Both the position numbers and the translations under genes were made by a program. A stretch of 46,129 nt of DNA, from assembly GCF_001968985.1 (NCBI RefSeq), contig NZ_MOEN01000011.1, positions 1-46,129 of the forward strand, written 5' to 3'. How positions within the stretch are numbered: position 1 is the stretch's first letter; each line of letters opens with the position of its first letter. Under the pieces are notes generated by a model. The model did no database searches. It was not told where the DNA came from and was given only the letters and a program-made list of their open reading frames with translations. Origin of the DNA: Desulfurobacterium indicum (GTDB taxonomy: Bacteria; Aquificota; Aquificia; Desulfurobacteriales; Desulfurobacteriaceae). Of this stretch, positions 11,272-40,875 are shown piece by piece.

Positions 11272-14154
11272 TTACCATCTCGCATTTACCGTAGCGCCGG
11301 TAGAAACGCTATCATCTGAAGGTGTGTATCTTAAATAACTATTTGCGGTGAAGTATTCACTGACCTGCCAGAAAACGTTCCCCGAATAAGATTCTTTCCC
11401 GTTACTTGAAGCCATACTTACACTGTATCTAATATCTCCTCCTCTTGGCACTATTGAAAGGCTTATATTTGTGGTGGAGCTATTTTTATCATTTTCTCTT
11501 GAAATGTAGCCTTCGGAGATGGTTAATCTAAGAATCTCAGACGGTGTCCAGGTAGAAGATACAGAATATATATCGGTTGTGGTTGATGATACGTTGTGCT
11601 GAATGGAACTTGAAACCAGAAGACTTGGGAAGAGCTTTGCATTAATGTTGAGCTTTGTGTTGTAACTTGTAGCGCTTGTATTGGTTTCCTCGTTTGTAGT
11701 TTTAACAATATCGTTTGAAAGTCCGGCGTTTAATCCTGTAAAGATTCTTGCATTTAGCCCGGTGCTTATTATAAAAGAAGTAGATGTTTTGTCATAATTG
11801 ATAAAGTTTTCTATGTAACCGGTTCCCGCTCTAAGTGAAAGTGTGTTTAAAGGTTTTGCTTTTATATCGATGTTAGCTCTTTGGGAGCTTCTTGTGTCCT
11901 GATCTTTTATAAAGTAATCTGTCCTTCCTGCACCCGCTCCTATCTGGATATACCTGTAACGCCACATTCCGGAAAGGTTGTGAGAAAATTTACTGCTTAT
12001 TTCTTCTCCGTCTCTACCTGTTCTTTCATACTGGAATGAGTATCCAAGATTTAGTGGAAGTTTGATTCTGATGCCAACTCTGGTTGTATCTCCGTGGGTG
12101 GAAGAATCATTTATCACTGTTGTGGCATTTGCTACTTTTTCATACGCTTCTACTTCTGTTACATAACCGATGTTGGTAGCTCCTGTAGATGTTAGAACAA
12201 GTTTTATGTAGTTGTCCTCTATTCTCTGAGGAAGAACGAAGTTTAAGGTTTCTGTCTGATTGTCATAGGTGAAAGGAACATTTGTTGCGACTATATTCCA
12301 TACATTTCCATCGCTACTTGTATATAGATCCCATTGAAGCGTTGATATATCCGTTGTGGTTAGATTCCCGCCTATATAGAGAGTGATTAAATCAACCGGT
12401 TGGTAATCTGTATTGATTGCTATATTTTCATACGGTGTTTGTAAGTTGATTCCGGCGCTGGTGTTATAATCTCCATCTGTTAGAAGGGCGTTTGGCGTTA
12501 AAGTTCCTATAGAAGGAGACGTGTCTATGCCGCTTAGCCCGGTTACCGGATAGACTTTCTTATAGTAGTAGCCGTTAACGCTTTTCAGAGAATAGCGGTT
12601 GTCAGAGTAGTATATACTTTCTATTGCAGACAGATAAATTTTTCCGTTAAAGAAGGCTTTTCTGACAGATATGTTCGCATTGTGGTTAGTTGTTTCTGAG
12701 AAAACATCTCTTACATGATCCTCTGTTTTTGAGTGGGTATAGGAATAACCTAATGTGAGGTTTCTTTTATATGTGTAGCCTGTTGAAAATCTTCTACTGT
12801 ATGTATCTGAATTTATATCATCAGAGGATACGGAATTTTTTGATACAGCCGCGCTAATGTATGGATATTTGGGATTCCATGCTGAAGAAAATATCAGTTC
12901 GTAGTTTTTGTTTTTTCCGTTATATCCCGAAGATGTTTTTGTATTAATAAGGCTTATTGACGATGATAGATTGAAAAGGTCATTAGTTAGTCTGGTATTT
13001 AGTGCCGGCCTGAATGTTGATTGCCAGGTATCTACGTCTGTGTGATATTTAGAATATCCTACTGATATCAAATATTTTATGCCGTCCGTTACCTCTCCGG
13101 GTGTGTTAAAGTTGTAGTTTTCGTTAAAGAAAGAGCTTCTGTCGCCGTCTTTATATACCGTGTTATATTGCCATTGAGCATAAAGATTTACTGTTCTGTC
13201 AATGAGAGGGAGGAGACTCGAAAATTCAATCTCTCCTGCTTTGTAAGGTTCTTTTTTAGGAACCACAACTTCTCCGGATGTTTTTGTCCTTATTGCTTTT
13301 GTTTTATTCCCTTTTATAAGTTTTTCCGAGCTCAGGACGATTTTTTTCAGCTTTTTCTGAATTTTAAATTCGGAAAGAGTTTTGTTTTCTGGTGATTGGA
13401 CTATAGGTGTTTGAATTTCCTTTAACTTTATCTTTTTAACTTTTTCTTTTACTGTTGGCGGAACGGCCTGTATTATAACTTCTGCTTTTTTCCCTGGAAC
13501 AATAGGAGCTTTTATTATAGGAATGGATGAAGGGACAAGTTCTTTTGGTTTTTTCTCTAATTTTTCCTGCTGTTTTTCCAATCCCAGTTTGGTAGGTGAT
13601 GTTGGAACTATAACTGTTTTAATCGGTAAAAATGTCAGTTTTTTTTGTAATTTCTTCGCCTCTTTTCTGGTTCTGGCCAAAAAAACTCTTACCGTGTAGT
13701 ATCCAGAATCTGTTTTATATATAAAAGCTTCTTTTTTTATTTCAGGAGGTAATCTTTTGTACAGACGCTCAGCAGCATCTCTTTTTGTTGCAGTTATTAA
13801 TTGGATTGAATAAAGAAAGATATCAGGAGTTTTAACCACTTTTACAGGCAGATTTAGGGCCTTTAGTATAGGTTTGTATACGGTTAAAATGGATGGAGAT
13901 GTTGCCAAAAATATGCGAACACTGTATTTATTTCCTATTTGGTATAAGTAGGCACTTTTCCTTAGATTTTCGGGTAAATTAAGAATAAATTCAAAAGCTT
14001 TGTTTTTATTTGTAAATGTTCCAACTTCGTAAGAGTAAAGATATCCTTTTACTTTGATGTTCTTATAGTTTACAGAAGGCTCGGCGTAAACGGACGTTCC
14101 TATTCCCAGCCCAATCAAAATAGCTGCAAATATAGCCTTTCCCGTTCTCTTCAT
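11272..14154 (-). CDS. Large outer-membrane beta-barrel protein with N-terminal SPOR-like repeats
   Basis: A 960-aa protein with a signal peptide (MKRTGKAIFAAILIGLGIGTSVYAE). Residues of about 35-175 hold two tandem SPOR-like modules (YSYEVGTFTNKNKAFEFI...YSVRIFLA; YSIQLITATKRDAAERLY...YTVRVFLARTRKEAKKLQ). A Lys/Pro-rich linker of about 130 residues follows, then from about residue 310 a long run of alternating amphipathic strands ending in TGATVNARW, the terminal aromatic typical of outer-membrane barrels. Around residues 540-675 a discoidin-like insert can be seen (NALLTDGDYNTSAGI, LQWDLYTSSDGNVW, YIKLVLTSTGATNIGYVTEVEAYE). It has its own strong promoter. The function is unknown. SPOR modules usually bind denuded glycan strands, so it may tie the outer membrane to peptidoglycan; that is inference. 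Confidence 0.8.
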   Translation of the reverse strand: MKRTGKAIFAAILIGLGIGTSVYAEPSVNYKNIKVKGYLYSYEVGTFTNKNKAFEFILNLPENLRKSAYLYQIGNKYSVRIFLATSPSILTVYKPILKALNLPVKVVKTPDIFLYSIQLITATKRDAAERLYKRLPPEIKKEAFIYKTDSGYYTVRVFLARTRKEAKKLQKKLTFLPIKTVIVPTSPTKLGLEKQQEKLEKKPKELVPSSIPIIKAPIVPGKKAEVIIQAVPPTVKEKVKKIKLKEIQTPIVQSPENKTLSEFKIQKKLKKIVLSSEKLIKGNKTKAIRTKTSGEVVVPKKEPYKAGEIEFSSLLPLIDRTVNLYAQWQYNTVYKDGDRSSFFNENYNFNTPGEVTDGIKYLISVGYSKYHTDVDTWQSTFRPALNTRLTNDLFNLSSSISLINTKTSSGYNGKNKNYELIFSSAWNPKYPYISAAVSKNSVSSDDINSDTYSRRFSTGYTYKRNLTLGYSYTHSKTEDHVRDVFSETTNHNANISVRKAFFNGKIYLSAIESIYYSDNRYSLKSVNGYYYKKVYPVTGLSGIDTSPSIGTLTPNALLTDGDYNTSAGINLQTPYENIAINTDYQPVDLITLYIGGNLTTTDISTLQWDLYTSSDGNVWNIVATNVPFTYDNQTETLNFVLPQRIEDNYIKLVLTSTGATNIGYVTEVEAYEKVANATTVINDSSTHGDTTRVGIRIKLPLNLGYSFQYERTGRDGEEISSKFSHNLSGMWRYRYIQIGAGAGRTDYFIKDQDTRSSQRANIDIKAKPLNTLSLRAGTGYIENFINYDKTSTSFIISTGLNARIFTGLNAGLSNDIVKTTNEETNTSATSYNTKLNINAKLFPSLLVSSSIQHNVSSTTTDIYSVSSTWTPSEILRLTISEGYISRENDKNSSTTNISLSIVPRGGDIRYSVSMASSNGKESYSGNVFWQVSEYFTANSYLRYTPSDDSVSTGATVNARW

Positions 14155-36788: not shown

Positions 36789-37908
36789 TTACTTTGCTGC
36801 TTCGGCTTTCTGTTTGAGATATCCCTCTATAAACATATCTATATCACCGTCCATTACGGTATTGATGTTTGAGGTTTCTATGCCTGTTCTGTGGTCTTTT
36901 ACCATTTGATAGGGCTGAAAGACATAAGAACGAATTTGGTTGCCCCAGGATATTTCTTTGTGTTCTCCTTTCGCCTGAGCCAGTTTTTCTTCTCTCTTTC
37001 TCATTTCAAGTTCAAATAGCCTTGCTTTCAGGATTTTCATTGCTCTCATTCTGTTTTGTATCTGTGAACGTTCACTTTGACAGGTTACAACGATGCCCGT
37101 TGGAAGATGGGTTATCCTGACAGCAGAATCTGTTTTGTTGACGTGCTGTCCGCCTGCTCCAGAAGCCCTGTAAGTGTCTATTCTTAGATCTTCGTCTCTT
37201 ATTTCTACCTCTATATCGTCTTCAATTTCTGGAACGACTATAACGCCGCAGAACGATGTGTGCCTTCTGGCATTGGAGTCAAACGGAGATATTCTTACAA
37301 GTCTGTGTGTTCCGTGTTCTGCTTTCAAAAGGCCGTATGCGTAAGGTCCTTTTATTGCAATGGTTGCACTTTTTATACCGGCTTCTTCATTTTCTTGGAG
37401 GTCTATAATTTCTGTTTCAAATCCCTTTTTCTCTGCCCAGCGCAGGTACATTCTCATAAGCATACCTGCCCAGTCACAACTTTCTGTTCCTCCAGCTCCT
37501 GCATGAATTGTAATGATTGCGTTGTTTTTGTCCATTTCGCCGGAGAGGAGTGTTTTCACTTCAAGATTGTTCAGTTTTTTCTTGAGTTTTTTTATTGTTT
37601 CTTCAGCTTCTTCAAGAAGACTTTCATCGTTTTCCTCTTCTGCCATTTCAAAAAGAACTTCGACATCCTCTATGTCTGTTTCTAAGTTTTGCCACATTTT
37701 TATTTCGGATTCTATACGGTTCCTTTCCTGGGAGATCTTTTGTGCTCTTTCTCTGTCGTTCCAGAAGCCGGGAGCAGACATCTCTTCTTCAAGTTTTTTA
37801 AGCTTCTTTTCTTCCCTGACTAAGTCAAAAATACCCCCGAAGTTCATTGTATTTATCCTTAACTTTTCCATATTCCTCTTTTAATTCTTGAAGCTTTTCA
37901 ATAAGCAT
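36789..37908 (-). CDS. prfB: Peptide chain release factor 2, expressed by programmed +1 frameshift
   Basis: RF2 terminates translation at UGA and UAA. The gene is in two frames: 27 codons from the ATG at 37908 (MLIEKLQELKEEYGKVKDKY, then NELRGYF) up to an in-frame TGA at 37827-37825, then a +1 shift into a 345-codon frame that begins DLVREEKKLKKLEEEMSAPG. The joined product is 372 aa, the normal RF2 length, with the tripeptide anticodon SPF (RISPFDSNARRHTSF) and the catalytic GGQ (ASGAGGQHVN). The codon before TGA is TTT and not the usual CTT. It lies between the HD-GYP sensor gene and cysS on the minus strand. Confidence 0.96.
37825..37840 (-). promoter_or_regulatory. prfB +1 recoding site
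   Basis: Minus strand: CGG GGG TAT TTT TGA C. A Shine-Dalgarno-like GGGGG lies immediately upstream of the slip codon TTT, followed by TGA and C, the classic autoregulatory RF2 layout in which scarcity of RF2 at UGA favours slippage. Canonical sites use CTT TGA C; TTT TGA C still allows re-pairing in the +1 frame. Confidence 0.92.
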
Positions 37909-37963: not shown

Positions 37964-39208
37964 TCAAGTTCTGTCAGGGTAGCCTTTTGTTTCTATCTTT
38001 GTTAGTGTTTTTGTTAAAAGCTCTATGTTTTCGGTGTCCTTTTCGTTTATTGTGTGAATGCTTAGTATTACACCGAGCTCTTCTTCCAGCTTTCTCATTT
38101 TCTCCTGTATTTCTGTGTTTTTAATCTTTTTGTCTATAAAGACAACAAAGTTATCTCCTGAATATCTTATTATGGCAATTGGATTAAAAGTCCTTTCAAG
38201 CATTTCTTTAAGTTTTTTAAGGATCTCATCGCCGTAATCCCAACCTTTTTCAAGGTTTAATTCTCTCAGTTTTAAGATGTCCACTGTTATGACTTTGAAA
38301 GGTGTATTTTTCTCTTTTAGATTGTTAAACAGGAAAAACAAGTAGTTTCTGTTAAATGCGTCTGTGAGTGAGTCTCTGAAGAAGTAATCAAGCCTTCGTT
38401 TTTCAAGTTCAGAGAGACTTTTAAAGTCTTGACTTTTAGTGATAGGGGGTGTTTCGCTTTTAAAGATGGGTATTGCTGCATGAACTACATCTGAATCATA
38501 TTTTTCGCCGGCGAGACTTATTAGCTCTTTTATAGCCTTTTCTTTAGGCATTCCCTTTCTGTATATTCTATCACTTGTCATAGCATCAAAGGAGTCAGCC
38601 ACAGCTATTATCCTTGCGGGGAGAGGTATTTCTTTACCTTTTAAGCCGTCAGGGTATCCTGATCCGTCGATTCTTTCATGGTGGTATTTAATGCTGTCAA
38701 CAATAGGTTTAAGAGGTTTGATGTCTTTTAGGAGTTCATAGCTTAAAACCGGATGAAGTTTAATGATTTCAAATTCTTTTTTTGTAAGCTTTCCGGGTTT
38801 TAAGAGTATGCTGTCAGGAATTCCTATTTTTCCAATATCATGTAGCAGTGCTGCCATATAGATTTTTTCGATCTGCTGTTCGTTTAGTCCCATATTTTTC
38901 GCAATTTCTTTGGAATAGAAAGCAACTCTTTCTGAATGTCCTCTTGTATATGAATCACGGATTTCAATACCTCTTACCATTGATTTGATAGTTGACTCAA
39001 GCAGTTCTTTTTCTTCTTTTATCTTTTCTTCAAGAGATTCTATAAGTTCTTTTAGTTCTGCGGCAACGGCGATTGATTTCGCAATATTTTTTAGATAAAT
39101 TTTTTCGTCTTCTGTTAAAGGTTGGTTAACTTTTCTGAAGAATATGACATAACCGTTGTTTTTAGAAAAGGTAGAAAGAGGAAATCCAACCAGATATTTT
39201 ATTCCGAG
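37964..39208 (-). CDS. HD-GYP c-di-GMP phosphodiesterase plus degenerate GGDEF domain (3' part of a split sensor gene)
   Basis: The frame is open from 39253 to the stop at 37964. It continues the sensor at 39199-40137 in the -1 frame, giving 414 aa after the slip point. It begins inside a GAF-like domain (KYLVGFPLSTFSKNNGYVIF), then a coiled coil (ELKELIESLEEKIKEEKELL). The HD-GYP domain has DSYTRGHSERVAFYS, LLHDIGKIGIPD and YHHERIDGSGYPDGLKG, with all metal ligands. A C-terminal GGDEF-like fold follows, with SGDNF in place of GGDEF, so it is probably not a cyclase. The first ATG (38980) would yield a cytosolic HD-GYP/GGDEF protein of 338 aa without its sensor. HD-GYP enzymes hydrolyse c-di-GMP to pGpG or GMP. 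Confidence 0.85.
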   Translation of the reverse strand, partial: LGIKYLVGFPLSTFSKNNGYVIFFRKVNQPLTEDEKIYLKNIAKSIAVAAELKELIESLEEKIKEEKELLESTIKSMVRGIEIRDSYTRGHSERVAFYSKEIAKNMGLNEQQIEKIYMAALLHDIGKIGIPDSILLKPGKLTKKEFEIIKLHPVLSYELLKDIKPLKPIVDSIKYHHERIDGSGYPDGLKGKEIPLPARIIAVADSFDAMTSDRIYRKGMPKEKAIKELISLAGEKYDSDVVHAAIPIFKSETPPITKSQDFKSLSELEKRRLDYFFRDSLTDAFNRNYLFFLFNNLKEKNTPFKVITVDILKLRELNLEKGWDYGDEILKKLKEMLERTFNPIAIIRYSGDNFVVFIDKKIKNTEIQEKMRKLEEELGVILSIHTINEKDTENIELLTKTLTKIETKGYPDRT

Positions 39209-40137
39209 TTTTTTTCGGAATCGCTTAAATAACTCAATTTGTCTTCTGTAAGTTCAATTTCTCTTTTCATTGTATTCATGTAACTCTCGATACCTTCGAG
39301 ATTATCAGGAAGTGTTTTTCGTGTTATTTTGTTATCTTTTGTGATTATTTTTGTTTCTATAAAGTTATCTTTAGGTAGTCCTATTATTACGCCGTCAATT
39401 TTATTTGTTTTTATTAACTTTCTCATCAGTTCGACAAATTCACCGTTAAAACCCTTTCCGGCAGTTAGCAGGTGTATGAACTGATACATCAGGTCTTCTT
39501 TTTGCATTTTGTCTTTGATGTTTTCGATCATTTCATTTATTTTTCTTCTGATTCCTCCGAATTCGTCGCTGCCTGATACAGGAAGTATGGAGAGTTTTCC
39601 TTTTGATATCTTTTCTATGTCTGTTTTTATCTGTCGCAGCGGTTTTAGATACAGGTCTCGTATTATTAGTAAAAGTGCTACTTGAAAGATGAATACCATT
39701 ACAAACTCGGTAAGACTTATTTTTGCTGCGAGAACCGATGTATCGTTTTCTATCTTTTCGCTATTTAGTTCTACAGCTACTGGAACTACTCCGTCTGGAA
39801 ATATAAATTTCTTATAAACAATTATTTTTCCATCGCGTTCTATAGTTTCACTTTCTTTATTTGGAACCTTAAACGGGAGTTTACCTATATATATATTCTT
39901 TACACAGGGTGTTTCTTTAAGTATTTCTGGTCTTAGGTCTTTTTTGCTTTTAATAATCACGGCTTTTGATTCTAAATCTGCTTTAGTAAGTTTGATTATT
40001 CGATTTTCCATAGAGTATCTGATACTTTTTTTTACGAGTATAAATGAAAAAAAGCTGATAGATATGGAGATGATTATGGATACTATGAGTAATGTCCAAT
40101 ATTTTGTTATTTCTATTTGTTTTTGGTATTCTTTCAT
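39199..40137 (-). CDS. Membrane sensor with HAMP and partial GAF domain (5' part of a split sensor gene)
   Basis: A 312-aa frame. It has TM helix 1 (WTLLIVSIIISISISFFSFI), a periplasmic domain of about 100 residues, TM helix 2 (FVMVFIFQVALLLIIRDLY), a HAMP domain (PLRQIKTDIEKISKGKLSIL, GSDEFGGIRRKINEM), then the first half of a GAF-type domain (NKIDGVIIGLPKDNF). It stops 9 nt after an A7 run. The missing half of the GAF domain and the output domains are encoded in the -1 frame immediately downstream, so the intended product is probably a single 724-aa protein. It lies 19 nt after a lipoprotein gene that may supply its ligand. Confidence 0.82.
   Translation of the reverse strand: MKEYQKQIEITKYWTLLIVSIIISISISFFSFILVKKSIRYSMENRIIKLTKADLESKAVIIKSKKDLRPEILKETPCVKNIYIGKLPFKVPNKESETIERDGKIIVYKKFIFPDGVVPVAVELNSEKIENDTSVLAAKISLTEFVMVFIFQVALLLIIRDLYLKPLRQIKTDIEKISKGKLSILPVSGSDEFGGIRRKINEMIENIKDKMQKEDLMYQFIHLLTAGKGFNGEFVELMRKLIKTNKIDGVIIGLPKDNFIETKIITKDNKITRKTLPDNLEGIESYMNTMKREIELTEDKLSYLSDSEKNSE
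39201..39221 (-). other. A-AAA-AAC slippery heptamer in a hairpin at the sensor/HD-GYP junction
   Basis: Minus strand: ATTCCGA-AAAAAAC-TCGGAAT. The two 7-base arms are perfectly complementary and the seven-A run spans the loop. In the sensor frame the codons read gaA AAA AAC, the X-XXY-YYZ pattern used for -1 frameshifting. A -1 slip here joins the sensor frame to the HD-GYP frame without loss. It could equally be a mutational or homopolymer read error. Confidence 0.85.
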
Positions 40138-40156: not shown

Positions 40157-40867
40157 TCATATACAATTTAGGAAGTTTATGTCTTTTCGTTGTTTTATGT
40201 TGTATTTAACCATTATGTACTTAATTGCTGCAGGATCAAAAATGTATGTTGTTCCATCTTGCCATAAAAGCAGAATTTTTTTTAAGTTTTTAAGCTTTGC
40301 TGCGGGACTTCCTTTCCTTATACATAGCAAATATTTTACTTTTCCTATATTTTCTATTATTTTATAAGATTTTAGAGGTTCCTTAAAGTATATTCCATGT
40401 TTTTTTAACAGCTCCCGAAAAGAGTCTATGTAGACGGTGTTGTTATCAGCAAAGTATCTATATAAAGGGGTGTTGAGGGCATAGAATAGGTTTGGTGCTG
40501 GTGAATTTGTTTTTGTCATTTTGAATATTGCAGGAGATTTTTTCCCTACAGAGCAGATTTTTATCCAGCTGTTGTCTATCGCTTTTATAAAATCATAGGT
40601 TATATTGTCCACAATTATGACGTTATATTTGCTTAGGTTTAATAATTTTATAAATTCAGCACTATTCTTGCTGTAATTAAGGGTTATTATGCTGTTTTTT
40701 ATGTTTAACTTTCCGTAGGCTTTCTCTGCATAAAAAGGCAAAAGTATATACTTGTTTTCTGCAAGTATGTTAATCTCCGTGTATTCTTTGCATCCGGAGA
40801 ATAGCAGAAATGTAGCGGTTAATATAAGGAAACCCGCTATTACAGCAAGTCCTTTTTTTTCGCTCAT
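40157..40867 (-). CDS. Lipoprotein resembling a periplasmic solute-binding protein
   Basis: A 236-aa protein from the ATG at 40867, which is better spaced from AAAGGTG than the GTG two codons earlier. The N-terminus has a lipoprotein signal with lipobox (LTATFLLFSGC), so the mature protein is lipid-anchored at the Cys. The rest alternates short strands and helices, with INILAENKYILLPFYAEKA and YNVIIVDNITYDFIKAI, consistent with a compact NMT1/THI5-like binding fold, but the family match is not certain. It lies between the Fe-S protein and the two-TM sensor, with a gap of 19 nt to the sensor gene. A role as the ligand-binding partner of that sensor is inferred from position. Confidence 0.65.
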   Translation of the reverse strand: MSEKKGLAVIAGFLILTATFLLFSGCKEYTEINILAENKYILLPFYAEKAYGKLNIKNSIITLNYSKNSAEFIKLLNLSKYNVIIVDNITYDFIKAIDNSWIKICSVGKKSPAIFKMTKTNSPAPNLFYALNTPLYRYFADNNTVYIDSFRELLKKHGIYFKEPLKSYKIIENIGKVKYLLCIRKGSPAAKLKNLKKILLLWQDGTTYIFDPAAIKYIMVKYNIKQRKDINFLNCI

Positions 40868-40875
40868 AAACACCT

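Follow-up and report, generated by a model that had tools for sequence, protein, structure and literature searches.

A frame break at an A7 tract in a predicted c-di-GMP phosphodiesterase gene of Desulfurobacterium indicum is probably a homopolymer undercall

The −1 programmed frameshift sites known from bacteria, such as those of IS elements and dnaX, are built on a heptamer of the form X_XXY_YYZ that lies in the correct phase. The heptamer A_AAA_AAC is a proven frameshift site in one cluster of IS elements, and in E. coli it is a low-efficiency heptamer (A_AA.A_AA.C; PMC4066793). Slippage can also be transcriptional, and efficient slippage by RNA polymerase has been reported at runs of 9 bases (PMC5009743). 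In homopolymer phase-variable genes the frame depends on tract length; an example of phase variation in c-di-GMP phosphodiesterases, by DNA inversion, appears in PMC9286219. A further class is formed by singleton frameshifted genes and interrupted coding sequences, in which a one-base length change is found in one genome and the orthologues elsewhere are intact (PMC3711429, PMC1852416). In M. smegmatis, 28 of 73 such interrupted genes were sequencing errors (PMC1852416).

We analysed a window of 46,129 nucleotides of the D. indicum genome in which a gene for a membrane-bound sensor is interrupted on the minus strand. Its 5' part (39199..40137) is an ORF of 312 aa, running from 40137 to 39199, that encodes an N-terminal membrane/sensor region, a HAMP domain (by Pfam) and, following the orthologue model, most of a GAF-like domain. 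It closes with ...GAT TCC GAA AAA AAC TCG GAA TAA, the out-of-frame TAA at 39199-39201 following 312 codons. The −1 frame runs on as ...CTC GGA ATA AAA... down to 37964, and this 3' part (37964..39214, 416 codons) encodes the end of the GAF-like domain, a coiled coil, an HD-GYP domain and a degenerate GGDEF domain. Codon alignment with the orthologues places the crossover at an A7 tract (T7 on the plus strand) at 39209..39215, read gaA AAA AAC; fusing the two parts at this point yields a protein of 724 residues (308 + 416), exactly as long as that of the sister species. The preliminary description of this locus had reported both the break at the A7 run and a canonical −1 heptamer in the right phase, and both are present in the recorded sequence. 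It had also described the run as the loop of a perfect 7-bp inverted repeat. The repeat is real (39201..39221, minus strand, arms 39201-39207 and 39215-39221), and its 7-nt loop is made of most of the homopolymer, the last T of the run sitting in an arm.

Since the break falls just 5' of the final two strands of the GAF-like domain, the 312-aa product would, in the modelled layout, be a membrane stub lacking an output domain. The first ATG, GTG or TTG of the −1 frame is the ATG at 38980, at the start of the HD-GYP domain, and no ribosome-binding site was evident there by eye.

The HAMP, HD-GYP and GGDEF domains all score above their Pfam cut-offs (in the 3' part, HD_5 at 2.2e-45 and GGDEF at 6.6e-10). 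The GAF domain of the proposed HAMP-GAF-HD-GYP-GGDEF layout fails in Pfam, staying below the cut-off in each of the three orthologues that were scanned (the highest score is 17.9 bits, for GAF_3, where 27 are required); what supports it is the GAF-like predicted fold of residues 232-335, inside which the break falls. The HD and HHExxDGxGYP motifs are intact in the 3' part, and their key residues are invariant in 13 orthologues. The GG[DE]EF signature of an active diguanylate cyclase is replaced by SGDNF, invariantly so in all 13 orthologues aligned, so that a regulatory or non-catalytic role is probable for the GGDEF domain. Phosphodiesterase activity, of the HD-GYP type, is the only one predicted for the enzyme. 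Among HD-GYP phosphodiesterases with an N-terminal GAF domain, PDB 4mcw, which we take to be PmGH of Persephonella marina, is the best match both in fold (E 3e-17) and in sequence (8.5e-39). The two have in common the GAF-like domain, the coiled coil and the HD-GYP core with its HD and HHExxDGxGYP motifs; the sensor described here differs in being membrane-anchored, with a HAMP domain, and in carrying the degenerate GGDEF domain (SGDNF) at its C-terminus.

In the sister species, which belongs to the same genus, the gene is a single ORF of 724 aa and lies beside prfB and cysS, as it does here; identity to the sister protein is 76% in the first part and 88% in the second. Uninterrupted frames of about 705-730 aa are found across the family, in the sister, in another member of the genus and in further members including other genera. 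The sister junction reads GAAAGGCAGCTC, with the codons GAA AGG CAG CTC, and other relatives have, for example, GAG CAA AAA CTC or GAG AAA AAA CTT. Junction codons were compared for seven relatives: none of them has an A-run of at least 7 at the homologous position (the longest is 6), and none has this heptamer there. Thus, on these alignments, the relatives inspected lack both the heptamer and the tract. The preliminary description had suggested looking at the junction in sister species, and had held that uninterrupted relatives without an A run would refute its interpretation; such relatives are what the comparison returned. A search of genome contigs returned only distant HD-GYP proteins. 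An A8 at the tract would restore the frame shared by all orthologues in the codon alignment, and the junction would then read E-K-K-L-G-I-K-Y, identical to that of one orthologue (L027).

To place this break among others in the genome, we searched the ORFs of the sister's 1.44-Mb main contig against 846 kb of the ~1.6 Mb D. indicum genome. This census covered 702 orthologous genes and ~229,000 aligned residues, and yielded four candidate breaks. Two of these, on contigs C5 and C4, are false: the sister ORFs had been extended too far at their 5' ends, into the end of an upstream gene or into a tRNA-like stretch. The other two are true frame breaks, one in the sensor gene and one in a DsrE-family gene, and both have 7 A/T where 8 keep the frame. 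A reciprocal search found no true frame break in the sister. The DsrE-family gene (106 aa; locus L042, on contig C4 of the D. indicum assembly, about 12159-12170, minus strand) has T7 where T8 keeps the frame, reading GTG AAG ATT TTT TTC TTG G where the sister protein has VKVFFLGE. Runs of at least 7 make up ~0.6% of the coding bases compared, and both breaks would fall in such runs by chance with a probability of only ~3e-5. From these counts, homopolymer length is therefore the cause of both breaks, acting through sequencing or through replication slippage. The same sample holds ~90 other A8/T8 runs in intact, conserved coding regions, without a frame break.

The sensor gene shows no sign of decay. 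We relied on dN and on lineage-specific changes, as synonymous distances are saturated between the species and dN/dS is unusable. For the first part, dN to the outgroup is 0.356 in D. indicum and 0.362 in the sister; for the second it is 0.177 and 0.196, respectively. Lineage-specific residue changes number 14 in D. indicum against 15 in the sister (first part) and 8 against 17 (second part). By these measures the gene is undecayed, with neither half evolving faster than in the sister, so that the break is either absent from the organism or very young.

These observations suggest that the organism probably carries an A8 tract that was recorded as A7 through a read or assembly error, and that the true gene is one ORF of 724 codons. 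It would then be an ordinary gene for a membrane-bound c-di-GMP phosphodiesterase of HAMP, GAF-like, HD-GYP and degenerate GGDEF domains, recorded one A short of A8; undercalling of the A8 in reads or assembly would produce the apparent frame break, and no slippage would be needed. An undercall or a recent indel is indicated by the continuous frames of the relatives, a tract that is a single base short, a second, similar defect in this genome, and the lack of accelerated change: the break occurs in one genome only, one added base restores the frame, and the same assembly holds the similar break in the DsrE-family gene. In this the locus resembles the singleton frameshifted genes and interrupted coding sequences described above, from which it differs in nothing notable, the slippery heptamer following here from the composition of the tract. 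A point against an undercall is that it would hit only ~2% of A8/T8 runs, ~90 others being intact. As to whether the missing base reflects a read or assembly error or a real, very recent deletion, we infer that an error is most likely.

The reading that departs furthest from an undercall is programmed −1 ribosomal frameshifting at A_AAA_AAC, or slippage of RNA polymerase on the A7, that would yield products of 312 and 724 aa; we regard it as the least probable of those weighed here. The motif is correctly phased and of a type proven in IS elements, and the slipped product would read E-K-N-L-G-I-K-Y, which occurs naturally in another orthologue (L028). However, GAA AAA AAA C minus one A gives GAA AAA AAC, which is A_AAA_AAC by construction: loss of a base from A8-C automatically yields a canonical-looking slippery heptamer. 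On this reasoning the heptamer and the frame break are one event, the heptamer being a by-product. Moreover, the 846 kb sample contains a further 16 genes, intact and conserved, with this A7-C tract in an identical phase. The coding regions of this sample show a mild depletion of in-phase A_AAA_AAC (92 occurrences against 124.5 +/- 9.6 in synonymous shuffles), a figure that says little because AAAAAAA is depleted against such shuffles in all three phases (for example 172 against 309 in phase 0). The inverted repeat has a fold of −7.6 kcal/mol; such repeats occur about 1.1-1.2 times per kb in D. indicum, and 2 of the 560 seven-base A/T runs in the sample sit in one. The hairpin is, from its position, not a candidate stimulator: it encloses the heptamer instead of starting 3' of it, and thus could not form while a ribosome decodes the motif, under which it would melt. 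As stimulators we considered an SD-like element 6-17 nt upstream or a structure starting 4-10 nt downstream. The 30 nt upstream contain no SD-like element (GAGG, GGAG, AGGA or GGNGG), the RNA downstream has no more structure than shuffled sequences (z = +0.89 and +1.06), and a scan of the region around the junction with Rfam returned chance-level matches alone. In contrast to the sites of IS elements and dnaX, this one is thus unconserved in every relative inspected, has neither an upstream SD-like element nor a stem 3' of it, and places the heptamer in a hairpin loop. The heptamer is also one of low efficiency in E. coli, and for polymerase slippage A7 falls short of the 9 bases at which efficiency was reported. 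A frame break at a slippery motif that is not conserved is not evidence of recoding.

A real one-base deletion from A8, very recent and confined to the sequenced isolate (for example in laboratory culture), is a possible though less likely origin of the break. The gene would then be broken; that the 312-aa membrane stub is made, with the HD-GYP part absent or weakly made from the internal ATG at 38980, has the same tentative standing. Slippage at homopolymers is common among spontaneous mutations, signalling genes that are not essential can disappear in culture, and the DsrE-family gene is broken in a similar way. Yet that second loss, in a short conserved gene, is explained at least equally well by a systematic read error, and without acceleration in the lineage the deletion would have to be very young. 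We consider it doubtful that the tract toggles within the population, with A8 as the on state and A7 as the off state. The frame is indeed set by the length of the tract, for which 8 bases are inferred in the on state, and the inversion-based example cited at the outset gives a precedent among c-di-GMP phosphodiesterases. But, in contrast to homopolymer phase-variable genes, the tract is missing in relatives, the sister and the others inspected having no A-run of at least 7 here, so that there is no conserved switch; and the many 8-base runs within intact, conserved genes of D. indicum indicate that such a run is not special. It seems quite improbable, too, that a new, species-specific A7/A8 tract has made the full-length phosphodiesterase dependent on ribosomal, transcriptional or replicative slippage, with a membrane stub as the product otherwise. 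Of the three readings offered in the preliminary description, a mutation or read error is therefore the one that gains support, whereas programmed −1 frameshifting and phase variation do not. An undercalled A8 remains our preferred explanation, and both the sensor gene and the DsrE-family gene need a base-level check before they are annotated as truncated.

The genuine programmed frameshift beside the sensor gene is, judging by its motif, the RF2 +1 site of prfB, which is separate from the sensor break. The prfB ORF0 (MLIEKLQELKEEYGKVKDKYNELRGYF*; 37825..37908, minus strand) has 27 codons and a TGA, and ends in GGGGG TAT TTT TGA C, the canonical form of this site. It starts at 37908, some 55 bp beyond the stop codon of the sensor gene, and the site is likewise present in the sister (L017). 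The ORF downstream of ORF0 is prfB by TIGR00020 (552 bits). In the mechanical ORF list prfB begins at 37871 instead of at the start of ORF0.

Just upstream of the sensor gene lies an ORF of 238 aa (40157-40873, minus strand) that adjoins the sensor in the sister as well (L017). It has no match in Pfam or NCBIfam. Judged by eye, it resembles a substrate-binding-type protein, either secreted or a lipoprotein, and it is perhaps a partner of the sensor.
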